In this document: one piece after another, positions 2,607 to 19,343 of the stretch
Numbering within the stretch: the first letter of the stretch is position 1
Layout: every line of letters starts with the position of its first letter
Virus record (IMG/VR): IMGVR_UViG_3300025118_000210
Location: 1-20,071 of that record
Strand: one strand, 5' to 3'
DNA from: a virus
DNA: 20,071 nucleotides
The notes under the pieces: model-generated
Seen by the model: only the letters and a program-made list of their open reading frames with translations
Told to the model about the DNA's origin: nothing
Databases searched by the model: none
Program-made: the position numbers and the translations under genes

Positions 2607-5060
2607 TTATGGGGTTAAAAAATATTTTGACCCTTGGTTTTTATAGGCTTTTCGTCTCATTCTTCTAAAGTATCCTGGGTCTAAAAATTCTTTTATATGG
2701 TAGCCAATTAAGTAATCATAAGCTGCCTTGGTATAAAATAAATTTAAAAATGGTGTATTACCTTCAAGGATTGAATAATTGGATTTACCAAATTTCTTCA
2801 TATCTCCATTAATTAAATGTGTAAATGATGCTATAAATTTAGATAGATCAGCAAATGCTGGACCCATAGCTGTCTCTTGCAAAGAGCCACCATAACCATT
2901 TTTTAATTCTGAATATAAAAAATCTCCATAAATACCCATTCCACCACCTTGAACAAAAGCAGCACCCCAATTTTCTAACTTACTCATATCTCTTGGAGAT
3001 TTACCTTTTAATAAATCTTTGACTGTCATTGCAAGATAACCCATCATAGTTCCAAAAATAACCATAGATGCTAAACCAGTTGCTCTATTTCTGCCTACAC
3101 TTTCATTAGCCGGGTTATAACCTCTTAATTCTCTACCAATAACTTTTTGATAAATAGCAACTGGAAAAGATTTAAACTGTGTAAAAAATCTCATTAATTC
3201 CCCCTCAACAGTTCCTCTTTTCCATCCTCTATTTAAGTCTGCTCTTACTGCTGCATCTGGTTCTGGTGTACCGTGCATAGCTCTATCTAATAAAAGGTTT
3301 CTGTAAGAAATATGTAAATCTTGTCTAAAATTATCAGCTTCTCTTTTTGATACTTTTCTACCTAAATAACTATCAATACTTTCAATAGATATTTCATCTA
3401 TTTTTTCAGCTGTAATATATGTTTTACCATCTGCCTCTAATGCAGAAATAGATCTTAACATATTCCACTTACCATTATCAATACCATACATAGTTAAAAT
3501 GTTTTGCTCTCTAGCTGAAAGTTTGTCAAATGTTAATGATCTTTTCATTCCATATAATCTAGCAACACCAACTGTCATTGCTGATTTTAAATTTGAAACC
3601 CACCAGTTCAAAGCATTTAATTGATAAAATTTATTTGACAGAGATGCAAACTTACCCGTCATATCTCCTCTACCAGAAAATTTTTGGTTCATAACTCCAA
3701 TAGTAGTATTACTCATTACTCCCAAAACATCTAAAGCAACTTTATTTCTACCTAAACCAGTAAGTTGACCTAAAGCCTCTGCTAAACCAGTAAATAAACC
3801 TCTACCTTGGAACCTACTTTCTGTCATATAAGTAGCAAGATCGGCAAATGATGAAATGGTTGCAAATCCTAGTTTACCAGTACCTTGAAAAAAACGAAGA
3901 GCCATACCAATTTTAGCACCCATAGCATTATCAACTTGGTAAACTGAACCATCCACTTCCATAAATTCATTTTTAAATTTTTCAAATTTAAACTTTCCAT
4001 CTAATTTAGGATTTATCTTTGCAAAATGAACTTCTAAAATTTTTAACATTCTTTCAAAGTTTGCTTTAGGTTTAGTACCAAAACTATTCATTATACCAAT
4101 ATTTCTTGCTGATAATTGTAAACCGTGTACTACACTTTCTCTTAATCTTGGATTGCCAAATTTTTGATCGTACTTAAATCTGGCATCGGCATTTTTAAAA
4201 TGTAATACTCTGCCTTCACTTAATTTCTTTACAATACTTTGAGAACCATAAACTGCATCTAAACCATCATTTTTAAAAAAAACACCTGATCTTAATTTAA
4301 GCCACATATCATCTAAAATTTCATCAATGTTTTTTGCGCCACCAAAGGTTCTTTCTAAATCTAATAATGGTTTTATAATTTCTCTCCAAGCTGATTGATG
4401 TTGTTTCCAATCGGTTATAGATCTTCCAGCTGCTCCAATTAATTTATCTGGGTCATGGTATTGTCTTGTAATCCAATCATCTAGTTTACCAATGTTAGCA
4501 CCTAAATTATTTAAAATTGTTCTAACATGTTCATTATGTTTTTTAACAATTTCTGCGATAACTTTTGCATCTTTAACTCCAGTATTTTCTCCGGCTAACT
4601 CTCGATAAACTTCAATATCTAATTTACCATTTTGAAAAGCATCTAAAGCATTACCACCAGCTTTTTTTAAATCAGTAAACAAGTTAGTCATAAACTCTTC
4701 TTCTAAAGCAGCTTGATCGTTACCTATAGATCTTCTGGAACCTTTACCAAAATCTTGAATACCTACTAATATAGCTCTTATTCCTTTAATTGGATCTTTA
4801 GACCAACTATCTATTATATGATTTGATCTTTCTAAAACTTTAATAGTATCGTTTGCTAAATTTCTTTTATTAATTGCTTGTTCTATTTCTATTTCATCAA
4901 TAACTTTTTGTGCAAGTTTACTCTCTTCAATGTTAGCCTTTTTTAATGCTTGTTCAGCTGCTAAATTAGATTTAACTCTAGTTAAAACTGTATTAACTTC
5001 ATCATCTGTTAATAAATCTTTTATAACTCTTTTAACTTCAATTAAGCATTTATCTGCCAT
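2607..5060 (-). CDS. Internal virion (core/ejection) protein, T7 gp16 C-terminal-half-like
   Basis: A large (817 aa) putative internal-core protein that would be carried in the head and ejected to help move DNA through the cell envelope. Residues about 1-70 are charged and helical. The middle is mostly alpha-helical and contains an RQYHDPDKL stretch near residue 200. A hydrophobic segment lies at about 660-680. The C-terminus has NTPFLNLFYTKAAYDY and DPGYFRRMRRK (about residue 795), which I recognise from the C-termini of gp16-type core proteins of marine podoviruses. The start ATG overlaps the previous gene's stop (TAATG) and has AGGAG 6 nt upstream, so translation is probably coupled. With the 456-aa partner the total is 1273 residues, close to T7 gp16 (about 1,318). 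The gp16 relation is inferred from position, size and motifs; the exact role is uncertain. Confidence 0.7.
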   Translation of the reverse strand: MADKCLIEVKRVIKDLLTDDEVNTVLTRVKSNLAAEQALKKANIEESKLAQKVIDEIEIEQAINKRNLANDTIKVLERSNHIIDSWSKDPIKGIRAILVGIQDFGKGSRRSIGNDQAALEEEFMTNLFTDLKKAGGNALDAFQNGKLDIEVYRELAGENTGVKDAKVIAEIVKKHNEHVRTILNNLGANIGKLDDWITRQYHDPDKLIGAAGRSITDWKQHQSAWREIIKPLLDLERTFGGAKNIDEILDDMWLKLRSGVFFKNDGLDAVYGSQSIVKKLSEGRVLHFKNADARFKYDQKFGNPRLRESVVHGLQLSARNIGIMNSFGTKPKANFERMLKILEVHFAKINPKLDGKFKFEKFKNEFMEVDGSVYQVDNAMGAKIGMALRFFQGTGKLGFATISSFADLATYMTESRFQGRGLFTGLAEALGQLTGLGRNKVALDVLGVMSNTTIGVMNQKFSGRGDMTGKFASLSNKFYQLNALNWWVSNLKSAMTVGVARLYGMKRSLTFDKLSAREQNILTMYGIDNGKWNMLRSISALEADGKTYITAEKIDEISIESIDSYLGRKVSKREADNFRQDLHISYRNLLLDRAMHGTPEPDAAVRADLNRGWKRGTVEGELMRFFTQFKSFPVAIYQKVIGRELRGYNPANESVGRNRATGLASMVIFGTMMGYLAMTVKDLLKGKSPRDMSKLENWGAAFVQGGGMGIYGDFLYSELKNGYGGSLQETAMGPAFADLSKFIASFTHLINGDMKKFGKSNYSILEGNTPFLNLFYTKAAYDYLIGYHIKEFLDPGYFRRMRRKAYKNQGSKYFLTP

Positions 5061-6430
5061 TAAGATCTCCTAATTATACAGTTGACAGCAGCTTTAATTC
5101 CGTCTCTTATTTTAGCTTTGTTTTTAATTTTATTATCAATACTTTCCATGGCTTTAGTATTAGCTGCAACTTCAGCACTAGCAGCTTCATTGTTTAATTG
5201 TTTCTCCATATCTTTAGCTCTTAAAGATAAATTTTCTGCATCTAGTTCTTCTGCTTGAACTGTTTTATTTTCAATAATAGGCTCTGTTTTATTTGGATTT
5301 ACTCCAACATCATCTCTACTTAATTCTGTACTCTTAACTTTACTCGCAACTTTATTTTCGTTTACAATCTTTTCAACAACTGCTTTTTCTTTTGCTTCTA
5401 AATCTTTTAATTTTTTTTTAAGCTCAGTTATTTTTTTTAATGTACCAATATATTTTAATTTTCTTTTAGGATCTAATTTTTCTAAAGCAGCTATCTTTTG
5501 TTTAATATCTTTAATTTTTCCAAATAATTTTACACCTTCCTCGTTTAATTCTTTTCTTGAATTAACTAATGATTTTTTAAGTTCAGCTTTTGTATTATCT
5601 ATTTCAATTAAAGTGTCATTATTTAATCTTGAATTTTGAACTACCTCGCCAACATTAACAGCTTCATCATTTGCTGCTTTGGTTACTGCGTGTCTAAATA
5701 AATCATCTTTTAAGTGAGGATGTGATTTGGCAAGTCTTTGGTAGATATTATCTTTTCCTCTAACACTTGCTATAGCATCTCCTATTTTACCAAAACCAAG
5801 GTGCATACCAGAACCAAGAAGAGTTCCGGCAGTTAAGTTTAAAATAGTATCTTGATAGGTATAATCTGCTTGTTCTCTCTGTGCAACACCATAAACAATA
5901 GGTTCAACTAAAGTATTACCAACAAAACCTTCAATAGCACCTTTTGCTAATCTTGCTCTTGTTGCGCCAAGTCTTGCAACTAAACTGGCAAATCTTGCCT
6001 CCCTAACAACCGGTATAAAGGATGCTGCAATATTTATTGGATCTGTAAACGATGTAACTAAACCAGCTCCTAAATAAACAGCTTTTGATGCTAAATTTTG
6101 TGGAGCTTTAGCAAGTTTAGCAGATCTTGCTTGTTCAATTTTTTTTCTTTGAACTATATAATCTACTACACCTTTTCTAGTATCCTTTTCAAAGAATAAA
6201 CCCATATCAGCATATTGTTTATTTAATTCTTCTTTAGGAAGAACCTCATCACTAAAATTGTAAGCCTCTTGATATTCAAATGTACGAAACAAAGATGATG
6301 TTGGGTTAAAGTTCCAGGCTTGGTAAGCAGACGTTTTAGTTGCCTCCCATAGACCTACGTTAGCTGTTTGTGCAGCAGTATTAATAACATGATCCGGTAA
6401 CTTAAATGTATTAAATTTTAAATTTAACAT
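5060..6430 (-). CDS. Internal virion (core) protein, T7 gp16 N-terminal/middle-like
   Basis: A 456-residue putative core protein. Residues about 110-215 are small-residue-rich and hydrophobic, including TDPINIAASFIPV (129-141) and a Gly/Ala-rich stretch ending LLGSGMHLGFG (204-214). This pattern is typical of the membrane-active middle part of gp16-type ejection proteins. Residues about 280-360 are a highly charged, Lys/Glu-rich predicted coiled coil, and the last 90 residues are Ala/Asn/Lys-rich. I see no lytic transglycosylase motif (no Glu-Ser-x-x-Asn-type catalytic start), which T7 gp16 carries at its N-terminus. The start follows the gp15-like stop by 13 bases with only a weak ribosome site. 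The end overlaps the next gene by one base, and its last codons encode that gene's ribosome site. The family call is by context and architecture. Confidence 0.6.
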   Translation of the reverse strand: MLNLKFNTFKLPDHVINTAAQTANVGLWEATKTSAYQAWNFNPTSSLFRTFEYQEAYNFSDEVLPKEELNKQYADMGLFFEKDTRKGVVDYIVQRKKIEQARSAKLAKAPQNLASKAVYLGAGLVTSFTDPINIAASFIPVVREARFASLVARLGATRARLAKGAIEGFVGNTLVEPIVYGVAQREQADYTYQDTILNLTAGTLLGSGMHLGFGKIGDAIASVRGKDNIYQRLAKSHPHLKDDLFRHAVTKAANDEAVNVGEVVQNSRLNNDTLIEIDNTKAELKKSLVNSRKELNEEGVKLFGKIKDIKQKIAALEKLDPKRKLKYIGTLKKITELKKKLKDLEAKEKAVVEKIVNENKVASKVKSTELSRDDVGVNPNKTEPIIENKTVQAEELDAENLSLRAKDMEKQLNNEAASAEVAANTKAMESIDNKIKNKAKIRDGIKAAVNCIIRRS

Positions 6431-9139: not shown

Positions 9140-9588
9140 TTTATAATCCTCGCAAATCTATAAAAGTCTGATCCATCTGGACCATAACCTTTCATTAAAC
9201 CTTCTTCTTTCAATCCTAAAAATTTTGCAAACTTTAACGCAACTAAACAATCGGCTTTAACAGATGTTTGTAATCTTCTAATAAAATTATTTTTTAACAT
9301 CATGTCAGTTCTTTGTTTAATAACCTTTGCAAATGTTATTGGATAGTTATTTATTTCTTTTGTAGCCAAGACCCACCCCTCGGCACAGCCATCCCAGAGG
9401 GGAAAGATCCCTCCAGCCGCTATAGGTTTGTTATTCAATAACCCTGTAAACGACATTCCAACTTCTTTTAGATAGTAAGCATATCTTCTATGCTCTGGTT
9501 TCATTTCTAGTAGTTCACTATTTAAACCTTGATCTAAAATATAATGTGCGTGTTCGTTTTCAAAAGGTACAAATTTAATATTAGACAC
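9136..9588 (-). CDS. T7 gp13-like internal virion protein with GNAT-like fold
   Basis: A 150-residue protein lying directly after tail tubular protein B, as T7 gene 13 does. The sequence follows the T7 gp13/GNAT-like pattern: a charged N-terminal helix region, a beta-strand with GLLNNKPIAAGGIFPLW (about residues 50-66), a W-V-L-A-T strand, a helix with QRTDMML, and a C-terminal part with FAKFLGLKEEG, the usual final elements of N-acetyltransferase-like folds. Whether it acetylates anything is unknown; T7 gp13 is treated as a morphogenesis or core protein. The start is GTG, not ATG (9586-9588), with GGAG 8 nt upstream, and it overlaps the end of the tubular B gene by 8 bases. A short GC-rich patch lies inside this gene. 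Confidence 0.7.
   Translation of the reverse strand: MSNIKFVPFENEHAHYILDQGLNSELLEMKPEHRRYAYYLKEVGMSFTGLLNNKPIAAGGIFPLWDGCAEGWVLATKEINNYPITFAKVIKQRTDMMLKNNFIRRLQTSVKADCLVALKFAKFLGLKEEGLMKGYGPDGSDFYRFARIIK
9376..9402. repeat. GC-rich inverted repeat inside the gp13-like gene
   Basis: CCCCTC at 9376-9381 and GAGGGG at 9397-9402 form a perfect 6-bp G/C stem around a 15-nt loop. It lies in the only markedly GC-rich stretch of this gene (about 9365-9420), where the protein reads FPLWDGCAEGW. In such AT-rich DNA the hairpin stands out, but it may simply reflect codons for a conserved Trp/Gly-rich segment. Confidence 0.4.
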
Positions 9589-12346
9589 TCTCTGTCTCCA
9601 GTCTTGGATAAATACCCAGGATAGTCATTGGTAGAGCTTGTGGTTGTTGAATATAAACTAAGCCTTCTGTGCCATAGCCTGTATCAAATTCAATTTGTTT
9701 ATCTCCAGTAAATAAGGGAATAGGCAAATCCATTGGAGATCCACTAGCTCTAAAATCTATTGCTGTTAAGTTTGCTGCATCTGGTCCAACTTTAGCTCCT
9801 ACTGTATCTTGAAACCTAACAGATAAATCATAAATTCTTTTTGTTTTAGTTTGTGTTGTTTCTGTATAACCTTCGTCTAATCTCATTGTCTGTAAATCAG
9901 ATGTATATAATAAACCAACTTTAGCTTGCTCGGTTGCGGTATCAATACTGATAACTCCCGCAGAAACCGTCTTTGAGGTTTGTGTAGCGCCTTCACCAAT
10001 AATATCTACAACTTCTCCTTCTAAATGATCCAATCCAGTAAGAGAGGATGTTTCATCGCCAACATAACTTAATCCACTATCTAAATAATGAAATGCAGTA
10101 ACATCTCTATTAAAATCAAATGGAGTAAAATATTCTACATATCTTCTTACAGCTCCATTAATCCATCTTTGAACTATAACCCAAACTTGATCCTCGTCTG
10201 CATCGCCATCAATTACAGCAACACTTTCTACTTTAGCATGGGTTAAAATGTTATCAGTTTGCTCGCTTGTATGAGCTGAAGTTAAATTAACAACAGTACC
10301 TAAAGTTTTATCTGAATAAAGTTTAAATTGGTTGTTATCAATTTTTTCAATATAATATTTTGTATTTTCAGATAAACCACCAATAGATGTTCCTGTATTA
10401 TCATAATAAAAAATATCTCCAGTAACAAAACCATGAGATACAGAATAAATAAAATTAGATGAAATATTAATACCTTGATAAATGTATTGAGTTGTGTCCG
10501 AGCCTGGAGCAGATGTAAAAGACACAGCTGTTCCAGCAGTAGCATTAGATGCAGTTGTGGCTAGTTTAATGGTATTACTATCAGATGCGATGGCATAATA
10601 TAATGTTGAATTATTTAATCCACCAATAATGTTGCTCGCTGCATAGTAATAAATTGGATCAGCAGTTGATAAACCGTGTGATGAAATTGTGATTGTATTA
10701 TTTGTGGTACTTACGTTTGAAGAATTGGATGTGAAAGAAATTGATTGTTGAATAATATTTTTTGTTGTATCTGATTTGCCTCCGATAATATGTCTATGCC
10801 AGGCTACAACATTCTCTAACCTATTATAAGTTAAACCAGTTAAAATCCCATCTGTTCTTGTACCCCAAACAACCGAATATGGCTCTTGTTGATAATCCAT
10901 TTGGGTAATACCACTATCGGTTATATGTTCAGAAAGAATAGTTAAATCTGGAGCAACATAACCATCTGTATCAAAGTTATAAGCAAGCTCCCTCATTTTT
11001 CTTTTTGCTCTTTGTAAAAAGATAGTTGCGTTACCAATAGATAAAGCATCCACTCCGGCTGAACCATAGTTGGATTGTTTAATAATTGAAATATTTGTAG
11101 GTGTGATTGCAGATGCGGTTCCAGCAGAGACGGCATATTCTCCACCAGTTGTCATTACAATTAAAGTTCTTGTTGCCTTCATGGCTTTAATTGCATTAAC
11201 CTGGTTTGATGCAATAGTATAAATCATAGCATCGTCAGCATCAGTTCCAGCTGTCATATTTTCATAATCTCCAGACTTTGAGAAAAACATAGTTTGTGGT
11301 TGATCTGAAGTTCCAGCAAATACTAATCTTTGTTGAAAGAAAGTAACTACCGAAGGATGACCCGTGGTGTCTGAAAAAGAACCCAGATTAAATGCTACTG
11401 TAGCATCGGTATTAGTAAATGCTTTAGTTATAGTACAAACAACAACTGTAGTATTAGTTCTTCCTGTAATTACAGCCTCGCCACTATTAAATTTTAAAAT
11501 TCTTCCAACGTCTGTTGTTTGAAAACCATCTCCACCATTTATTCCTGTGGTTGAGCTAGCAGTTATATTAACACCCGTTCCAGTTCCAGAGGATGCTGGA
11601 GTTAAAGTTGTCGCTGTGGTGTTGGTATCCATGTAGGGTCCAGTTTCAGCAAAGTCTACTTCTGAAAGTGTCCAAGAAGTATGTCCAGTTCTGGATAATT
11701 TTGATGCCTCGTGGCTGGGATGGCAGATATACATAACGTCAGCAGACTGTGCAAATTTTAAATCAAATAATTGTGCTGTCGTATAACTGGTTGTGATTTG
11801 ATAAATTTTATTAGCAGTACCCGCTGAAGAATAAGTTGTGTAAGCAGATGAATTTATATCGTTACCATCAACATCTTGTAATTCAAAAGTATTGGTAGTT
11901 TTATTAGAAACTTTAAAAGTTTTATTATTAACTTCTGTCATTCCAACAACACTAGAAATAGTTACAAAATCTCCATCGGAATAACCATGTGAGCTAGATG
12001 TAACTACAGCTGGATCAGCAGCAGTAATTCCTGTAATAGTTTTATCACCTTCTACAATTTGACCATCATCTTTAAAGAAACGAATATATTGATTGCCAAA
12101 TTCTAAAATGTAAGTTTGAGTAGTTGAAAATGTAAATGGAATTAATCTGGTTGAAGTAGAAGAAGTTTTAATTTCAGAAACAAAATATGTACCTGGTCTT
12201 CTCATTACTGGTCCATGTGGCATAACCACAAAGTTTTCAATGGTAGTTGCACCGTTAAAGTATTTTGCAAAATCTGTTCTTCCCTCCATAGAAGAGGAAA
12301 GCTCCCCAGCGGTAAAGCTAGGGATGCTTAAAAGTTGTTTTCCCAT
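9581..12346 (-). CDS. Tail tubular protein B, T7 gp12-like, with inserted domains
   Basis: The tail nozzle protein of short-tailed phages, below the gp11-like ring. The N-terminus is diagnostic: SIPSFTAGELSSSM followed by NFVVMPHGPVMRRPGTYFV (residues 38-56). Residues about 101-185 are an inserted beta module (VVTSSSHGYSDGDFVTI) often found in this family. The conserved core then continues: FAQSADVMYICHP (198-210), FFQQRLVFAGT (336-346) and QRAKRKMREL (445-454). A second insertion, residues about 530-702, holds two tandem SHG modules. The core resumes with DEDQVWVIVQRWINGAVRRYVEYF (717-740) and ends in beta-rich sequence. At 921 residues it is longer than T7 gp12 (794), which the insertions explain. 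It starts 2 bases after the gp11-like stop with a weak ribosome site, and its end overlaps the gp13-like gene. Confidence 0.92.
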   Translation of the reverse strand: MGKQLLSIPSFTAGELSSSMEGRTDFAKYFNGATTIENFVVMPHGPVMRRPGTYFVSEIKTSSTSTRLIPFTFSTTQTYILEFGNQYIRFFKDDGQIVEGDKTITGITAADPAVVTSSSHGYSDGDFVTISSVVGMTEVNNKTFKVSNKTTNTFELQDVDGNDINSSAYTTYSSAGTANKIYQITTSYTTAQLFDLKFAQSADVMYICHPSHEASKLSRTGHTSWTLSEVDFAETGPYMDTNTTATTLTPASSGTGTGVNITASSTTGINGGDGFQTTDVGRILKFNSGEAVITGRTNTTVVVCTITKAFTNTDATVAFNLGSFSDTTGHPSVVTFFQQRLVFAGTSDQPQTMFFSKSGDYENMTAGTDADDAMIYTIASNQVNAIKAMKATRTLIVMTTGGEYAVSAGTASAITPTNISIIKQSNYGSAGVDALSIGNATIFLQRAKRKMRELAYNFDTDGYVAPDLTILSEHITDSGITQMDYQQEPYSVVWGTRTDGILTGLTYNRLENVVAWHRHIIGGKSDTTKNIIQQSISFTSNSSNVSTTNNTITISSHGLSTADPIYYYAASNIIGGLNNSTLYYAIASDSNTIKLATTASNATAGTAVSFTSAPGSDTTQYIYQGINISSNFIYSVSHGFVTGDIFYYDNTGTSIGGLSENTKYYIEKIDNNQFKLYSDKTLGTVVNLTSAHTSEQTDNILTHAKVESVAVIDGDADEDQVWVIVQRWINGAVRRYVEYFTPFDFNRDVTAFHYLDSGLSYVGDETSSLTGLDHLEGEVVDIIGEGATQTSKTVSAGVISIDTATEQAKVGLLYTSDLQTMRLDEGYTETTQTKTKRIYDLSVRFQDTVGAKVGPDAANLTAIDFRASGSPMDLPIPLFTGDKQIEFDTGYGTEGLVYIQQPQALPMTILGIYPRLETESV
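10240..10760 (-). repeat. Tandem SHG-module insertion in tail tubular protein B
   Basis: Residues about 530-702 hold two consecutive copies of a roughly 75-85-residue module. Copy 1 has TISSHGLSTADPIYYY, then IGGLNNSTLYYA and NTIKLATTAS. Copy 2 has YSVSHGFVTGDIFYYD, then IGGLSENTKYYI and NQFKLYSDKT. The matching order SHG - acidic turn - YY - IGGL - YY - KL shows duplication. The pair interrupts the tubular B core between VAWHRHIIGG and VESVAVIDGD. Confidence 0.75.
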
Positions 12347-12348
12347 AT

Positions 12349-12930
12349 TTAGTATCTACTATTTAAAAAGTCTTCAGTTATGATTTGATCTGTTGGAGCT
12401 AACTCTGGATTTGTATTATAACCTTCAGAGCTATCTGCGTGTCTCGCCTCTGATAATTTAGCTTGATATTTTTCTGCCATTAATTTTGAAACTTGTAGAT
12501 TGGCAGTTATAGCATAAGCAATATCTTGCGCTAAATATGCAGAGATAGTTTCTCTTAATAAAATATCTAATTCGTTGACATCTGTTATTTGTGCTAAATA
12601 AATTAAATAAACAGAACTTTCATCAATTAATAATTTTCTACCTTCTATTTTATAATCAGAATTATAATCTTTAATTCCTAAAATTCTTAAACAATCTGCG
12701 GGTAATGTATATTGATATGTAAAACCCCAGGCTGGAGTAGCTGTGTCTTGTGCTAATTGTATTCTTTTAATTAAACAGTTCCAGGGATGCGCTCTAAATA
12801 CTGCATCTCTAATTGTTGTATATCTTTCATTACATAGTCTAGCATTTTTACTATCGTCTGTAAGAGCTGTAATTGAACTTGCTCCTAATTGATTTAATGC
12901 TGAATTACAAATTTGAACTACACTAGCCAT
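12349..12930 (-). CDS. Tail tubular protein A, T7 gp11-like
   Basis: The adaptor ring between portal and tail nozzle. At 193 residues it matches T7 gp11 (196). Diagnostic features: an N-terminal helix with CNSALNQLGASSITAL, a NERYTTIRDAVFRAHPWNC stretch (about 34-52) typical of the family, a beta segment with YQYTLPADCLRIL (73-85), and a helical C-terminal half ending in a charged tail. The start ATG has AGGAG 5 nt upstream. It is the first gene after the head genes and follows a 78-base gap with a GC-rich hairpin, so its expression may be set apart from that of the capsid block. Confidence 0.9.
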   Translation of the reverse strand: MASVVQICNSALNQLGASSITALTDDSKNARLCNERYTTIRDAVFRAHPWNCLIKRIQLAQDTATPAWGFTYQYTLPADCLRILGIKDYNSDYKIEGRKLLIDESSVYLIYLAQITDVNELDILLRETISAYLAQDIAYAITANLQVSKLMAEKYQAKLSEARHADSSEGYNTNPELAPTDQIITEDFLNSRY

Positions 12931-13521: not shown

Positions 13522-14397
13522 TTATGCTTCATGACATGGAATTTGAACAACTTTTTTCTCTTCCATTCTTACTGCACCAAGAGACATTGCGTAGTACACT
13601 TGTGTTGAGTAAGACTTGTCAGCTCTTTCAGAGATTTTTGCTGCTATATCACTTCCGATACCTAATTTAATAGCATCTTCAGTATAAGCAAAAATTAATC
13701 TGTCGTCTGTGTTAGTTGCATCCATGTTCAGTCTTGTTGACATTATAAACTCAAATCCTAAGTAGGAATTGATACTACCTTCAGCAAGAGCTTTAACTGT
13801 ATTATAGTCAGAGCTAGTTACTTGAGTAGTTCCTAATAGATCCGAGATCTGTTGTGGTCCGCAAACGACAAAACGCTTCAATGAAGCATCTACATCGTTG
13901 TTATCTAAGATTTTCTTCGCAGCTAAAAGTTTAGCAATTGTCAAACCATCTGATTGGTCTGAAGTTGCAGTCTTTTGACTTGAAGGTAAAGCTGTAGATG
14001 AACCACCCGCAACACCAGTTGATGCTGAAGCATTCATAGCCGTAATAATTACGTCATCCATGCTTCTATTCATCGCTGCTGCCGCTGCCTTAGCGTATGA
14101 ACTTGTTGGATCCACAAGCATTCTAACTTTGTCAACATCGTCAACTAAGTCAGCCCACTCGTAATCAGCCAAGCTCAATCTTCTTCTGCTGTGTGGCGTA
14201 TCAATTTGAGGTGTATCGCCATGTCTGCTCGTTCTTATTTGGGCAGCAGTAACTCCGACTTGATCGAAGAAAGCGTTTTTACCTCTTACAGTTTCCACAT
14301 CAACAGAACCTCTTAATTTACTTCCTAATTGTTGAGAAAGCATAGCAACATTCGAGCTATACTGCTCCACAAAAGAAGTAGTAATTTGAATAGACAT
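13522..14397 (-). CDS. Major capsid protein
   Basis: The shell protein of the head. The 291-residue sequence begins with TSFVEQYSSNVAMLSQQLGS, then has IDTPHSRRRLSLADYEWAD (about 65-83), VDKVRMLVDPTSSYA and a conserved DDVIITAMNASASTG. It ends with a beta-rich segment and a short basic/acidic tail. I recognise this pattern from capsid proteins of marine and other podoviruses; an HK97-type fold is expected. No long N-terminal delta domain is seen, in keeping with a separate scaffold gene just upstream. Ribosome site AAGGAGAA lies 4 nt before the ATG, one of the best in the window, and a phage-type promoter candidate sits about 90 bases upstream. Both suit very high late expression. Confidence 0.93.
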   Translation of the reverse strand: MSIQITTSFVEQYSSNVAMLSQQLGSKLRGSVDVETVRGKNAFFDQVGVTAAQIRTSRHGDTPQIDTPHSRRRLSLADYEWADLVDDVDKVRMLVDPTSSYAKAAAAAMNRSMDDVIITAMNASASTGVAGGSSTALPSSQKTATSDQSDGLTIAKLLAAKKILDNNDVDASLKRFVVCGPQQISDLLGTTQVTSSDYNTVKALAEGSINSYLGFEFIMSTRLNMDATNTDDRLIFAYTEDAIKLGIGSDIAAKISERADKSYSTQVYYAMSLGAVRMEEKKVVQIPCHEA

Positions 14398-14534: not shown

Positions 14535-15377
14535 CTATACAGAATTTTTTTGTTCTCGTAAAGCCAAAACTTCTTTAACAGCAAGATCGTGATTAGGATG
14601 TCTTTTATCCCAATACGAAGATCCTTCTTTTGTTAATTCTCCTATTTCTTTCTCTATTTGAGCTGGAGTTTGATAAGCTGGTCCAGATGCTTGAGTTATA
14701 GTATCTTCTCCCATCTTATCAGCTAATGTAGCAAACGCTTTAATAAAACTTGGATGGTCGCCAATTTTAGTTCCGTCTGCTAAATTTTTATTTAAAAAAT
14801 CTTCATCAAAAACTTGTAAAGCAACATCAGCAGATTTTTTAGTTTGTTGTTTGTATGCTTGACCCCACTCTTTTTTAAGAGATGTTTCACTTTCTTGTCT
14901 GGCGTTTTCAGCTGTTGTATCTAAATCCTGTTGCTGTTGAGCTGCCATATCATTATAAAATTTAACAATGCCGTTAGCTTGTGTTGGAAGTAATCCCAAC
15001 TTATGAGCCTGGTCTGAAAAACTTTTTAATGCGTCTTGATTAATATTAGCATCTTCTCCTAGTTCATATTTATATCCAGTTGCATCCTTTGGTCTACCTA
15101 GTTTTTCATAAACTGCATTCCAATCATCTTCGGTTGCATATTTATTTGGAACTGGAATTTTATCTGATCCAACTAATTTTTGTGCATGAACATAAGACTT
15201 TGCTAAACCTTCTATATCTTTAATGTTTTCTAAAGATTTATCAGATTTTATTTCATCGGAAAGATTTGCTTTCCAATCTATGTTTGTTTCTGGAGTTTCT
15301 GTTTTAGGATCTCCAGATAACACCGGAGCATCAGTTGATACTTCTGGCGTTACTACCTCTTGATTTTCGCTTGACAT
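14535..15377 (-). CDS. Capsid assembly scaffolding protein
   Basis: An internal scaffold that guides shell assembly and is then lost. The 280-residue protein is strongly charged, Gln/Lys/Glu-rich and mostly helical, as T7 gp9-type scaffolds are. It begins with an acidic, probably disordered 40 residues, has a GLAKSYVHAQKLVG helix (57-70) and a PNKYATEDDWNAVYEKLGRP stretch (77-96) common in scaffolds of this class, then a Gln-rich coiled region (about 145-165) and a basic C-terminal helix likely to touch the capsid. It lies directly before the capsid gene. Ribosome site AAGGAGAA precedes the ATG by 6-7 nt. Confidence 0.85.
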   Translation of the reverse strand: MSSENQEVVTPEVSTDAPVLSGDPKTETPETNIDWKANLSDEIKSDKSLENIKDIEGLAKSYVHAQKLVGSDKIPVPNKYATEDDWNAVYEKLGRPKDATGYKYELGEDANINQDALKSFSDQAHKLGLLPTQANGIVKFYNDMAAQQQQDLDTTAENARQESETSLKKEWGQAYKQQTKKSADVALQVFDEDFLNKNLADGTKIGDHPSFIKAFATLADKMGEDTITQASGPAYQTPAQIEKEIGELTKEGSSYWDKRHPNHDLAVKEVLALREQKNSV

Positions 15378-15379
15378 AT

Positions 15380-15592
15380 TTATTCTCCTTTTTTGTTAAG
15401 CATATTTTTAATAAACAAGACTACTGATCTTGTTCCTTCTAAAAATGCGCTTTCGTGGCTATCTCCTTTAACATGAGTAGTTACATGAAAACTGCATCTC
15501 TTTTCCAAATCAGAAAGCACTCGTTCTCCAGCTTCCGATTTAAAAACCATTTTATAATCAATATTTAATTGTTTAAGTTCTTTGTGATCCAT
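15380..15592 (-). CDS. Small Bbp19-like virion-region protein
   Basis: A 70-residue protein between portal and scaffold. The pattern YKMVFKSEAGERVLSDLEKRC followed by an EGTRSVVLFIKNML helix resembles the small Bbp19 family first seen in Bordetella phage BPP-1, which lies in the same neighbourhood of many podovirus genomes. Its function is not established; a role in head or portal assembly is only suggested by position. The ATG overlaps the portal stop by one base (TAATG), so its translation probably depends on the portal. The next gene starts 2 bases after its end. Confidence 0.6.
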   Translation of the reverse strand: MDHKELKQLNIDYKMVFKSEAGERVLSDLEKRCSFHVTTHVKGDSHESAFLEGTRSVVLFIKNMLNKKGE

Positions 15593-17187
15593 TACTCAAC
15601 CGCCTTTAGAGCTGGTGCTATTTTACCCGCACTCTCAGCTACTGCTTGAGCTTGTTGTAATTGTTGCATCTGCATCTCGGCTTGTTGTTTTTGTTGTTGG
15701 ATTTGTTGAACCTCTGCTTTTGATCTCATAATTTTAGCTGGTAAACCTAAAACATTTTTAATGTGATCTACTAAACCATCTATATCTATGTAATCAAATA
15801 CTGGTGCAATATTCTGCATTGAACCAAATATTTCTATTCCTCTCATAACAGATGATAGCTCTTGTGTTTTTTGAGCTTTGGCTAATGGAGATACATATTC
15901 TATCTCAACATCCTGGTCGCCAATTTCTTCTGGTATTGGAGGTAATTTATTATTTTTTAATAATAAATTAAAAGCTCTAGTAATTAAAGGTTGTAATAAT
16001 TCAGATTGTAATCTTCCTAATACTGGACCCAACAATCTCATCTTCTCTTCAGTTCTTTGCATAACCTCTGTTGCGGTCATGTTTTGACCCTGGACCATCA
16101 TTAATTGATCGACAAAGAAATTTTCTCTAATTGCTTTTCTTCTTTGCTCTTCCATTTGAATACCAACTGGAGCATTAGATCCAACTTGTAATGGTTCAAT
16201 TCTATCTCTGGTTCCAGATCTATAGAAATTTAATCCACCCGGTACAGTTCTAATTGGTAAAATAAAACCATCATCAGGAACCATTAATGGTGGGTCAATT
16301 TGTTTTTGAGCTGCTTTAATAGATGTCTTAGACATTGTGTTTAACATCTTGGTATCTGGTAAAGCATTCATAGCTGGAGATCTTCCAAAAATTTCATTGG
16401 ATGAAGATTTTAAATATCTAGGTACAACGTATGGAAATTCTCTAAATCCACTTTCTCTTAAAATAGCTCCTGTCTCTTGATGAATATGGCATGAAACATA
16501 ATCCATATTATCTTTATTATCATAACCCATTGGAGTATCAGATTTGTGTACTGAGTGAAGTATGATACTATCTTCAAAAGGTTTATTTTTTACTACCTCT
16601 TGCAATGATCTTGGTAATTCTACATCCGGATACATTAAAGGAATATTTTTATTTTTAAGATGAAATCTTCTAAGTAAGCTATCGACAAAACCTTTTTCAT
16701 TTTCAGTAATAAATATTTCTGAAATATGAATTGTTTTAAATCTTAGATCATCTTTAACATCATCTGTAATAAACATAGCAGACGTACCAAAGGCTAATAG
16801 TTCATGGTAAAGTTCAAAAATTTCTTGTTGAAAATTTGAACGAGCAAATACTTGCTGCATAATTTTAGCGCAGCTCTCTAACCATTCTACTGCTGTATCA
16901 TCTTGGTTAGTTGCCTCAGTTCTAAATTTTAAAACGAACCACGGAGAAATCGTATTGGTTAGCATACCATTTAAGCTAGCTGATAATAATTCTAATGCGT
17001 GAGTAGCTGTACCATCATATATCTGGTCGTGTCGTTTATCGCCTTTAGTTCTTTTAATAGTTATATTAGATTTTCTTGGTAAAAAATAATCTGCAATTTC
17101 TTGCCAATGCTCTTCCCAAGTAACTCTTTGATTTTTTAAAGTATTATATTTGTCAATAATTTCTTTTGCTTTTTTTTCTACCGCCAT
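15592..17187 (-). CDS. Portal protein (head-to-tail connector)
   Basis: The dodecameric portal through which DNA enters and leaves the head. At 531 residues it matches the T7 gp8 class (536). Landmarks: WEEHWQEIADYFLPR (24-38), the YDGTATHALELLSASLNGML stretch (57-76) with SPWFVLKF after it, LLAFGTSAMFI near 129, FREFPYVVPRY (about 252-262), and NMTATEVMQRTEEKMRLLGP (about 369-388), all typical of the head-tail connector family. The last 40 residues are a Gln-rich coiled coil (QQIQQQKQQAEMQMQQLQQA), the usual C-terminal crown region. AGGA precedes the ATG. It starts 3 bases after the 215-aa gene and sits two genes after terminase, its packaging partner. Confidence 0.93.
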   Translation of the reverse strand: MAVEKKAKEIIDKYNTLKNQRVTWEEHWQEIADYFLPRKSNITIKRTKGDKRHDQIYDGTATHALELLSASLNGMLTNTISPWFVLKFRTEATNQDDTAVEWLESCAKIMQQVFARSNFQQEIFELYHELLAFGTSAMFITDDVKDDLRFKTIHISEIFITENEKGFVDSLLRRFHLKNKNIPLMYPDVELPRSLQEVVKNKPFEDSIILHSVHKSDTPMGYDNKDNMDYVSCHIHQETGAILRESGFREFPYVVPRYLKSSSNEIFGRSPAMNALPDTKMLNTMSKTSIKAAQKQIDPPLMVPDDGFILPIRTVPGGLNFYRSGTRDRIEPLQVGSNAPVGIQMEEQRRKAIRENFFVDQLMMVQGQNMTATEVMQRTEEKMRLLGPVLGRLQSELLQPLITRAFNLLLKNNKLPPIPEEIGDQDVEIEYVSPLAKAQKTQELSSVMRGIEIFGSMQNIAPVFDYIDIDGLVDHIKNVLGLPAKIMRSKAEVQQIQQQKQQAEMQMQQLQQAQAVAESAGKIAPALKAVE

Positions 17188-17190
17188 TTT

Positions 17191-17838
17191 TTATCCTAAT
17201 TTTTTTCTTTTAATTGTTAAATTACTATCTCCCAAACCTTGTGCAGCGGTTAAAATAGTATCTTTTCTTCCTTTTTTTTTAGTTGCAAGTAAAGTTGCAT
17301 CAGCAGACATTGTGGTAGCTGATGCTTGATCTACTTCTGCTCCTGTTGGAGATGTTTTAACCGCAGATGCACCCACTCCTTCAACATAAGTAGTTTTTGG
17401 TTGGTTGTTATCTCCACCTCCAGGATTAATATTTCCATAAGCATCTGTTGCTCCACTTTGTCTACTCATTCTATAGTCTTTATAAACTTCTTCTTGTTTA
17501 GTTCTGTTTAATCTGGAAAATTCATCTTTAGTATAACCAAGATTTTTCATTCCTCGTTCTGAAGTTAAAACTTTATCTGTAAAAAATTCTCTTGTTTTTT
17601 TAGCTCCAGCATCTAAACCACCTTCTATAAATTTTAAGCCTAGTGGTCCCTTTTGATCTTTTGTATAAGGATCATTATGGAATAAATCTAGTTTAGCAGC
17701 GCTATCGTCTTTTTCTGTATTAGAAATTACTTTTTTTTTTTTTTTTTTTTTTTCTGAATAAGTTTTACCACCAGTTGCTACTGCTTCTGCTCCTGATACG
17801 TCAGTATCGTTTCCGCCACTACTACTTGCTCCTCCCAT
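17191..17838 (-). CDS. Hypothetical virion-region protein with poly-Lys tract and shared C-terminal motif
   Basis: A 215-residue protein of unknown function between the terminase and portal genes. The N-terminus is Gly/Ser-rich and disordered. Residues 30-36 are seven lysines encoded by part of a 23-base A-run, so the frame past residue 29 depends on that exact run length. Residues about 60-130 are a charged helical section, followed by a Gly/Asn/Pro-rich stretch. The C-terminus (187-215, GRKDTILTAAQGLGD then a basic tail ending KKLG) matches the end of the preceding 74-aa protein. The ATG directly abuts that gene's TAA, with GGAGG in its last codons. A minor virion or packaging-associated protein is plausible from place alone. 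Confidence 0.65.
   Translation of the reverse strand: MGGASSSGGNDTDVSGAEAVATGGKTYSEKKKKKKKVISNTEKDDSAAKLDLFHNDPYTKDQKGPLGLKFIEGGLDAGAKKTREFFTDKVLTSERGMKNLGYTKDEFSRLNRTKQEEVYKDYRMSRQSGATDAYGNINPGGGDNNQPKTTYVEGVGASAVKTSPTGAEVDQASATTMSADATLLATKKKGRKDTILTAAQGLGDSNLTIKRKKLG
17731..17753 (-). repeat. 23-nt homopolymer (A-run on the coding strand)
   Basis: An uninterrupted run of 23 T on the plus strand is A23 in the sense of the 215-aa gene, encoding seven lysines. Gain of one A leads to a TAA four codons on, and loss of one gives TAA immediately after the lysines. The tract therefore works as an on/off switch if it slips during replication or transcription. It is also a place where sequencing or assembly length errors are likely. 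Confidence 0.95.
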
Positions 17839-18063
17839 TTATCCTCCTAACTTTTTCTTTTTAACTAATAAGCTATCGTCATCTTCTAAACCGTCAGCTC
17901 CAGTTAATATTGTTTGTTTTCTACCTTTTCTATTTCTTCTTACTTGCGCTCTTTTTTCTTCAATTTCTTTTTTCCTTGCCTCATCATCATAACTTGGTGG
18001 TTCCGGTAAAGGAGCCGGTGGTGGTGGAGGTGGTGGCATTGAAGGTGATTTAAAAATTCCCAT
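17839..18063 (-). CDS. Small proline-rich protein with TILTG-type C-terminal motif
   Basis: A 74-residue protein directly after terminase. The N-terminus MGIFKSPSMPPPPPPP is proline-rich (residues 7-23), followed by a highly charged helix (about 24-45) and the C-terminal GRKQTILTGADGL with a basic tail ending KKKKLGG. I recall small proteins of this layout near terminase or portal genes in other podoviruses; no function is established to my knowledge. The same C-terminal motif ends the next gene, suggesting a shared partner or a duplication. GGAGAA precedes the ATG by a few bases, and the gene begins 2 bases after the terminase stop. Confidence 0.65.
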   Translation of the reverse strand: MGIFKSPSMPPPPPPPAPLPEPPSYDDEARKKEIEEKRAQVRRNRKGRKQTILTGADGLEDDDSLLVKKKKLGG

Positions 18064-18065
18064 AA

Positions 18066-19343
18066 TTATTCTCCGTGTATTCTATAATCATTAACAGCTA
18101 AACTTTGTGCTGTTGCTTTTTGTCTAGGTAAATCAGTAATCGACAGAGCCATATATCTTGCGGCATCTGCTGCATGACTACTCCAATCTTTTACTGGTTT
18201 ATTACTAAACATTTTCATCTTCTCGTTATATTTTCGATGATGATGTCTTAAAGCATCTATTAATGGTTTTGTGTTATCTCCGTCAAACCAACACTTAGGT
18301 AAAACCATCTTTAAGCTGTGGATACCATCTTCTAAATTTATTTTAGGTAAAATCTTAAACCTTATTCCTAATTGGTAAGCTACCTCTCTTCTGGTCTTAC
18401 CAGTTGAAAATTCTGTTACTTCTATGTCATGTGGCGCAAAGTGTTCCCCATAAACATAATCTTTATCTTTTACGACTTGAACATAATGCGGCAACCCTTC
18501 TCGGTTGTTTTCATAATAATCAATTATTAAAATCTGGTTACCCAGTAATTGATAGAAAACTATTGCTGTACTATCGTCAACTCCAAGATCCCAGGCAGTA
18601 TGAACCATTAATGCTGGGTCGTATGCAATTCTAGTTATTTGTTTTTTTTCTTCTAAAGATTTTATAATTGATCCATATACGGATCCTTCAATATTTGCAA
18701 TCCAATCGCACTCAAATTCTTGCTTATATTTTGCATCTCCCATTTGAGTTTTAGCAGCATCCAACTCTTCCTGGTCGATAATTCCTGTATCGCTGGCTTT
18801 TGCAGTATAAGCTAACCAGGTTGGGTCAGATTGTGCGTGCTGGTATAAATCATAAAATATATTACTCATTCCAGCTGGTGTTGAAATAAAGTAACAAAAA
18901 CCTTTTCTATCTGATAGAGCGGGTCTAATTATCTCATTCCATAATATCGGGTTCATCTGTGAACATTCATCCACACAAACCCCGTCTGCATATATTCCTC
19001 TAATTTTATCTGGATCCTCACTAGATAATAATTGTATTCTAGCTCCTGTTGCAAAATCGCACCTTAATTCAGTTTCGTTAAAAGTAGTTCCTGGAATACA
19101 GCTTGCGTACTGTTTTAAATAATCCCAGCATACCCTTTTAATAGATACAAAGGTTGGTCCAATAAGATAATACCTTGGGTTCTTTTTATCATTTGTAAGA
19201 GCTTTCTTCATCAAATGTAAAATTATCAGTATAGTCTTGCCAAACCTCCTGTGGCAGTTAAGCACCGCAAATCTATGATTGTCTAAATCTTTATGCAGTT
19301 TTGCCTGTAGGGGTCTTGGAACATAAGGTATTTCTATGTGCAT
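18066..19343 (-). CDS. terL: Terminase large subunit
   Basis: The ATP-driven DNA packaging motor and nuclease. The ATPase domain shows a Walker A variant CHRRFGKT (30-37), Walker B VCVDE (122-126) with the catalytic Glu126, and the coupling motif ISTPAG (153-158). The RNase H-like nuclease domain shows its three acidic positions in AWDLGVDDST (Asp252), HFAPHD (Asp306) and SSHAADAARY (Asp393). At 425 residues it is complete but compact (T7 gp19 is 586). No strong ribosome site precedes the ATG; it starts 4 bases after a tiny membrane-peptide gene and may be coupled to it. No small terminase gene is recognisable nearby. In T7 the large terminase follows the tail fibre; here it heads the structural module. 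Confidence 0.95.
   Translation of the reverse strand: MHIEIPYVPRPLQAKLHKDLDNHRFAVLNCHRRFGKTILIILHLMKKALTNDKKNPRYYLIGPTFVSIKRVCWDYLKQYASCIPGTTFNETELRCDFATGARIQLLSSEDPDKIRGIYADGVCVDECSQMNPILWNEIIRPALSDRKGFCYFISTPAGMSNIFYDLYQHAQSDPTWLAYTAKASDTGIIDQEELDAAKTQMGDAKYKQEFECDWIANIEGSVYGSIIKSLEEKKQITRIAYDPALMVHTAWDLGVDDSTAIVFYQLLGNQILIIDYYENNREGLPHYVQVVKDKDYVYGEHFAPHDIEVTEFSTGKTRREVAYQLGIRFKILPKINLEDGIHSLKMVLPKCWFDGDNTKPLIDALRHHHRKYNEKMKMFSNKPVKDWSSHAADAARYMALSITDLPRQKATAQSLAVNDYRIHGE

Follow-up and report, generated by a model that had tools for sequence, protein, structure and literature searches.

Record IMGVR_UViG_3300025118_000210 of IMG/VR, a viral stretch of 20,071 nucleotides analyzed over its whole length (positions 1 to 20,071; hereafter the window), encodes, on its minus strand, the packaging and tail proteins of a podovirus. 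Two small open reading frames on this strand, encoding P74 (17839..18063) and P215 (17191..17838), lie between the gene for the terminase large subunit (18066..19343, minus strand; phrog_2 at an E-value of 4.6e-37 and PF03237 at 1.2e-7) and that for the portal, or head-tail connector (15592..17187, minus strand; PF12236 at 5.1e-133, with the 8ck0 portal as nearest solved structure at 1.2e-77). The terminase-adjacent P74, the first copy, combines a Pro-rich N-terminus resembling that of phage T7 gp6.7 with a C-terminal motif, and the portal-adjacent P215, the second copy, is a long form with a Gly/Ser-rich N-terminus and a helical middle. With a probability of roughly 0.58, P74 and P215 are two related members of a widespread podovirus family and the distant counterparts of T7 gp6.7 and gp7.3. 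Established here are family membership, gene position, and the existence of two copy groups, together with a profile-level link to T7 that is weak but recurs.

Both proteins end in GRK-x-TILT-x-A-x-GL followed by a tail containing KKLG. The motif of P74, GRKQTILTGADGLEDDDSLLVKKKKLGG, spans 17842..17925 on the minus strand and starts at 17925, and that of P215, GRKDTILTAAQGLGDSNLTIKRKKLG, spans 17194..17271 on the same strand and starts at 17271; these are the only two matches to G[RK]xxTILT in the six frames of the window. The initial annotation had noticed this shared C-terminus in two adjacent small proteins, and it is real: both minus-strand frames are present, and the local BLOSUM62 alignment of P74 with P215 scored 86, a value reached by none of 2000 shuffles of P215 (best 54). 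The N-termini do look unrelated, as it had also noted, but its description of the tail needs some adjustment: a final KKLG holds for P215, with P74 ending in KKLGG, and the acidic step, pronounced in P74 (EDDDS), is faint in P215 (GDS). The codons differ between the two genes, so that recent copying of the DNA looks unlikely.

Both proteins match phrog_831, a family with no function attached in PHROGs v4: P74 over residues 5-73 (E 8.3e-11), and P215 over residues 163-212 (E 0.003, or 5.2e-6 in a one-genome search), from which P215 differs in bearing about 160 residues ahead of the matched part. P74 also matches phrog_13568 (E 9.2e-4), the family to which P-SSP7_023 belongs (E 2.2e-34). In an alignment of 41 family sequences, all of which match phrog_831 at an E-value of 0.1, residues G47, T51, and L53 of P74 are invariant; in an alignment of 12 long forms, G190, R191, I195, T197, G201, L214, and G215 of P215 are invariant, and every invariant residue falls within its last 69 residues. 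In the wider family, P74-like and P215-like proteins are akin over the last ~75 residues (profile-profile E 2.6e-23), which is nearly the full length of the short forms, and the N-terminal and central parts of the P215-type long form are variable. Second copies occur in a short form of 70-81 residues and a long form of 172-235 residues. Within P215 itself, a run of 23 T at window positions 17731-17753 corresponds to a poly-lysine stretch; in two near-identical contigs (L001 and L002) this tract contains Ile codons, so that the run may either vary between viruses or be a product of faulty assembly.

Pfam assigned no family to P215 and only three unrelated families, below the cut-off, to P74; for the 41 relatives it gave scattered unrelated families only (best E 0.005). 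A tblastn search of a phage collection with P74 found no match, probably because of low-complexity filtering. No significant relative was found in the PDB with P74, the family profile, or Carin-1 gp47, the profile reaching 9vvp_S, a gp6.7 relative, at an E-value of 5.3 only. The AlphaFold model of P215, built from 12 sequences, has a mean predicted local distance difference test score (pLDDT) of 50.5, with means of 71-80 per ten-residue block at residues 81-140 only; in this model the motif is predicted, at low confidence, as a strand (194-198) paired with 209-213. A Foldseek search of the model against the PDB gave no hit at an E-value of 0.001.

The gene context of the family was surveyed by scanning viral contigs with a DNA pattern for G-R-x-x-T-I-L-T-G-x-x-G, which is blind to context and does not amount to a census. 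At least 130 matches in at least 119 loci were found, and the counts that follow refer to the matches listed. Of these, 129 of 130 were in frame and 25-36 residues before the stop codon, the single exception (L056) lying in no open frame of 30 codons. A PF12236-type portal gene was encoded downstream on the same strand for 125 of the 129, at a distance of -112 to 3069 bases (median 195; 120 of 125 within 1100), and a terminase gene upstream for 114 of the 129, at -94 to 1754 bases (median 36); both were present in 111 of 129, and the reversed order was never seen. The four matches lacking a portal (L053, both copies of L064, and L117) have 785, 597, 156, and 1694 bases remaining downstream. 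Thus, the motif is not randomly placed in viral contigs, and the check that the initial annotation had proposed, a motif search with a look at the gene neighbors, turns out in its favor. In searches of whole records with phrog_831 at an E-value of 1, matches were obtained in 11 of 20 phage records at 14 places (weakest E 0.007), all of them ahead of the portal gene, with three pelagiphages having two places each; the nine records with no match were those of VP2, Vibrio phage 22O28-1, and seven T7-like phages.

As a control, the same pattern was run over bacterial genomes, giving at least 120 matches in at least 120 loci. Among the matches listed, 104 were in an open frame and 62 were within 60 residues of the stop codon, mostly with tails unlike those of the family. 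The DNA pattern alone is therefore not specific in that much larger collection, where it appears to arise mostly by chance. Among the 120 loci listed, eight had a portal or terminase model match on the same strand and the other 112 had none; seven of the eight carry the tail of the family, with LLG or ALG followed by a single final residue, an ending found in no other fully printed bacterial tail. In the record of Xanthomonas phage CP2 (L035, AB720064.1), the phrog_831 protein MCSSAPKVKP...GGRQSTILAGN...KTALGV (9161-9364, plus strand) is unannotated, and the annotated connector gene ORF13 starts over it in another frame.

Two strict copies were present in 11 of the 118 loci with an in-frame match, among the scan loci listed. 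A quick tree was built from 66 columns covering 96 C-terminal pieces, with first and second copies named by gene order; it was supported by Shimodaira-Hasegawa-like approximate likelihood ratio tests only and left 55 of its 92 inner branches open. In this tree, all but one of 18 first copies and all but two of 18 second copies fall into two groups with support of 95 and 96; outside them are both copies of the pelagiphage Baldr and, on a long branch, the second copy of HTVC028P. The two groups additionally include 11 and 9 proteins from loci with one strict copy, and P74 and P215 fall one in each. This arrangement fits, but does not prove, one old duplication after which the order terminase, copy 1, copy 2, portal was kept.

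The link to T7 was examined with the family profile, which was run against 483 six-frame open reading frames of 11 T7-like loci, with 14 genes counted as counterparts. The six best-ranked frames were all gp6.7, gp7.3, or HTVC019P gp27: HTVC019P gp27 at an E-value of 5e-4, two gp7.3 proteins at 0.019 and 0.035, ICP3 orf34 at 0.046, T7 gp7.3 at 0.15, and T7 gp6.7 at 0.18, with a chance frame in seventh place. The individual matches are weak, and it is the ranking that carries the argument. A profile of the N-terminal part placed HTVC019P gp27 first (2.8e-5), ICP3 orf34 second (2.2e-4), and T7 gp6.7 fourth (0.0077) among the same frames. For profile-profile comparison, the sets were split by the signature E[VI][SDE][QM] ahead of the motif, not by gene position. 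The set carrying the second-copy signature scored 26.2 against gp7.3 (best of 80 column shuffles, 15.5) and 12.9 against gp6.7, the latter equalled by 3 of 80 shuffles; the P74-like set scored 20.3 against gp6.7, via the N-terminus (best of 80 shuffles, 15.5), and 32.5, with a probability of 86, against the HTVC019P set. The scores thus separate gp7.3 from gp6.7 for the second-copy set, but not for the P74-like set. At an E-value of 1, neither P74 nor P215 matched phrog_1391 (gp6.7) or phrog_1320 (gp7.3), and each of these families was matched by one of the 41 aligned family sequences (E 0.03 and 0.037, respectively). A Klebsiella gp7.3 matched the gp6.7 family at 0.008 over its C-terminal part.

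Gene order and sequence detail point in the same direction. Two small genes shortly ahead of the portal gene are common to the window and T7, in which the order is 6.7 - 7 - 7.3 - 7.7 - 8 (portal), gene 7 belonging to phrog_2746. In ICP3 the order is orf34 - 35 - 36 - portal, likewise with a phrog_2746 gene between the counterparts of 6.7 and 7.3, and in Baldr it is copy 1, an acyltransferase gene (phrog_4470, E 4e-22), copy 2, a small gene, and portal. The Baldr order parallels those of T7 and ICP3, and no kinship between gene 7 and the acyltransferase is implied. T7 gp6.7 (phrog_1391; 9jyy, 9jyz, 9jz0) and Gp17 of 9vvp are encoded ahead of the portal, as P74 is. In the T7-like phages fetched, gp6.7 starts with MC(F/W)SPK (loop I of T7, MCFSPKIKTP), and this Pro-containing start resembles those of P74 and of ICP3 orf34 (MCIFKAPS). 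Unlike P74, gp6.7 has an acidic middle and a basic C-terminal third after GRKGLKV (GGKKSLKV in several relatives of T7), and it lacks the TILT-G..G..LLG tail. T7 gp7.3 (phrog_1320; 9jyz) is encoded between gp6.7 and the portal, and its last third, ...(R/K)K.R.GGKKSLSVARSSGGGINI, aligns with the second-copy set as far as the motif start. It differs in its very basic N-terminus (MGKKVKKA) and in having SLSV in place of TILT, GKKSLS[VI] being present in 31 of 31 T7-like sequences; P215, unlike gp7.3, has a Gly/Ser start and a helical middle.

HTVC019P gp27 and P-SSP7_023, of T7-like marine phages (a Pelagibacter phage and a cyanophage, respectively), have a gp6.7-like start (MC..RPK or MCIFRAPK) and occur in one copy upstream of the portal; in HTVC019P gp27 this start is joined to a gp7.3-like end, and its C-terminus, SALNTSSGLNI, looks nearer to gp7.3 than to TILT. 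Carin-1 gp47, phiV10 p06, Ab31 ORF03, and AF004 occupy the same position, with a C-terminus such as GTKSTILSGSQG...KTLLGQ, and differ from the window in having a single copy only. Ab31 ORF03 and AF004 carry the phrog_831 C-terminus and share phrog_4893 with phiKMV gp29, annotated as a virion structural protein. In ICP3 (NC_015159), orf34 (L273:3131-3382) matches phrog_1391 at 1.2e-18 and orf36 (L273:3825-4115) matches phrog_1320 at 5.5e-12, and the two look like counterparts of gp6.7 and gp7.3; by contrast, a 2026 preprint on phage Peru-2, which worked with another ICP3 isolate, describes such counterparts as not readily identifiable in ICP3 (PMC13320782).

A number of results weigh against this correspondence with T7. 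Five of the 14 expected counterparts—gp6.7 of two T7-like phages, ICP3 orf36, P-SSP7_023, and phiKMV gp29—fell outside the best 14 of the 483 frames, no T7 protein came below an E-value of 0.1 in the full-profile ranking, and a profile of the last 45 residues alone failed to single out the T7 proteins (all E >5). A Pro-rich composition is able to inflate the N-terminal matches, and the signature-based split could lean towards gp7.3. The P74-like set scored higher against gp7.3 (22.5) than against gp6.7, the probabilities were low (10% for P74-like with gp6.7 and 53% for second-copy with gp7.3), the undivided family was only narrowly above its shuffles (20.2 versus 18.4 for gp7.3, and 18.4 versus 17.5 for gp6.7), and 1 of 150 shuffles equalled the score that the HTVC019P set obtained with gp7.3. 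In PHROGs, T7 gp6.7 and gp7.3 have no phrog_831 match, nor did the seven T7-like records; VP2 and 22O28-1 have a related portal and no such match; and the phrog_831 search at an E-value of 1 was also positive in 4 of 14 control genomes. In the stretch shown of the HTVC010P record, finally, 'structural protein' is the annotation of gp09, not of gp03 or gp04. Taken together, the tie to T7 consists of several weak signals in mutual agreement.

The published T7 structures suggest what such proteins might do. According to the structural study, 12 copies of gp6.7 surround the portal barrel via residues 2-15 (loop I), and six copies of gp7.3 are located at the nozzle-adaptor junction, with residues 84-98 anchored between two gp12 subunits and K84 and K85 contacting the DNA end (PMC11784390). 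Both are small virion proteins ejected at infection; in the ejected particle, the nozzle is open and contains a channel made of 12 gp6.7 and six gp14, and one conformer of gp6.7 has a helix bound where two gp12 subunits meet (PMC11784390). Residues 84-98 of T7 gp7.3 are KKSLSVARSSGGGIN, and their position corresponds, as judged by eye and by placement, to that of GRK-x-TILT-x-x-x-GL in the phrog_831 family; the motif is therefore read as a part docking in the tail channel, with the differing N-termini probably suiting different partners. By this analogy, P74 and P215 would both be virion proteins, located at the portal-tail axis. P74 would bind the portal barrel through its Pro-rich N-terminus, as gp6.7 does through loop I, and the shared C-terminal peptide would dock in the tail channel at the nozzle, with the basic KGRK part beside the DNA end and TILT-x-x-x-GL between nozzle subunits. 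The DNA end and the core would be held in place until ejection, at which P74 and P215 would leave with the core. In the window, the portal (15592..17187) is the proposed partner of the N-terminus, and the tail nozzle, or tail tubular protein B (9581..12346, minus strand; phrog_376 tail protein, E 1e-197; 8ck1 'Tail Nozzle', E 1.9e-90), that of the C-terminal motif.

Other explanations of the shared peptide were weighed against tail-channel docking. The initial annotation had envisaged a common docking or sorting tag for the portal, terminase, or head, and its docking part fits the anchoring of gp7.3 residues 84-98 between nozzle subunits (PMC11784390), with the portal and nozzle as likelier partners than the terminase. 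A tag sorting proteins into the procapsid via the portal or scaffold, with the varied N-terminal parts as cargo, would account for the variable N-terminal and central parts of second copies over a constant C-terminus, for lengths of 70-235 residues, and for the location of the motif ahead of the portal and capsid genes; it is nonetheless unlikely, given that a general tag would be expected on other virion proteins as well, but all 14 places in 11 records are ahead of the portal, and that in T7 the C-terminus of the counterpart is resolved in a docked state (PMC11784390). Binding of the DNA end or regulation of packaging by P74 and P215, together with the terminase and outside the virion, has little chance of being the correct explanation: the basic residues around the motif (KGRK and the KKK tail), the adjoining terminase gene, and the contact of gp7.3 K84/K85 with the DNA end (PMC11784390) speak for it, but the T7 counterparts are virion proteins that are ejected at infection (PMC11784390), and in the stretches shown of T7, ICP3, and SP6 it is the portal that is annotated near the counterpart genes and not the terminase, which likewise lends no support to the terminase as a partner.

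A role as small assembly chaperones of the portal or nozzle, absent from mature particles, appears similarly improbable, with gp7.3 and gp6.7 resolved in mature T7 (PMC11784390) and phiKMV gp29 annotated as a virion structural protein. Chance or low-complexity resemblance between P74 and P215, for which the Lys- and Pro-rich stretches could be invoked, is refuted by the shuffled alignments, the retention of the motif in both copy groups over wide divergence, and the constant gene context, and has practically no likelihood left.

Should tail-channel docking and the T7 correspondence hold, two T7 proteins would be united with many 'hypothetical' ones, and an unannotated portal-adjacent family of many podoviruses would gain a specific and testable function in genome retention and release; the earlier statement that no function has been described would then be too strong. 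The open-access literature searched, as far as its text was accessible, describes neither the phrog_831 family nor a kinship of gp6.7 and gp7.3. A possible though doubtful extension is that gp6.7, gp7.3, and phrog_831 derive from one ancestor with an N-terminal portal-binding and a C-terminal nozzle-binding peptide. After duplication, one copy would have kept a portal/core role and the other taken on that of a channel plug, the shared C-terminal peptide giving each access to the seams between nozzle subunits, in one case before ejection and in the other after it, and single-copy podoviruses would use one protein for both roles.

The simple C-terminal signature can be used to find the pair where similarity searches fail, including in phages of SAR11 bacteria, a group ranking among the most abundant marine phages. 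In the phage collection, the window portal and P215 both have their best matches in Pelagibacter phages, which accounted for six of the eight records matched by P215 in tblastn, and the window phage appears to be a marine, pelagiphage-like podovirus related to phages of SAR11 bacteria. A small basic protein, MSLY.N.N.RKK.GTSR...GFP, is encoded between the second copy and the portal in HTVC028P and Baldr (L025:2669-2830, L029:4337-4483); a pattern search found none in the window, and in HTVC019P it follows the scaffold gene (L159:5798-5929).

Downstream of the portal, the minus strand of the window encodes a Bbp19-like protein (15380-15592; PF25181, E 9.5e-17), a protein matching phrog_3742 and a protease family (14535-15377), the major capsid protein (13522-14397), and a tail protein (12349-12930), and internal virion proteins are encoded in the window as well. 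Between the nozzle gene and that for a phrog_418 internal virion protein, the product of 9136-9588 matches phrog_4177 and phrog_308 'internal virion protein'; a phrog_4177 relative in Pseudomonas phage AF, annotated as an acetyltransferase, is encoded between the terminase and the phrog_831 gene of that phage. The adjoining frames 2607-5060 and 5060-6430 each align with a separate part of phrog_342, a large internal virion protein (E 7.4e-6 and 6.5e-17, respectively), as if a T7 gp16-like protein were split into two genes here.
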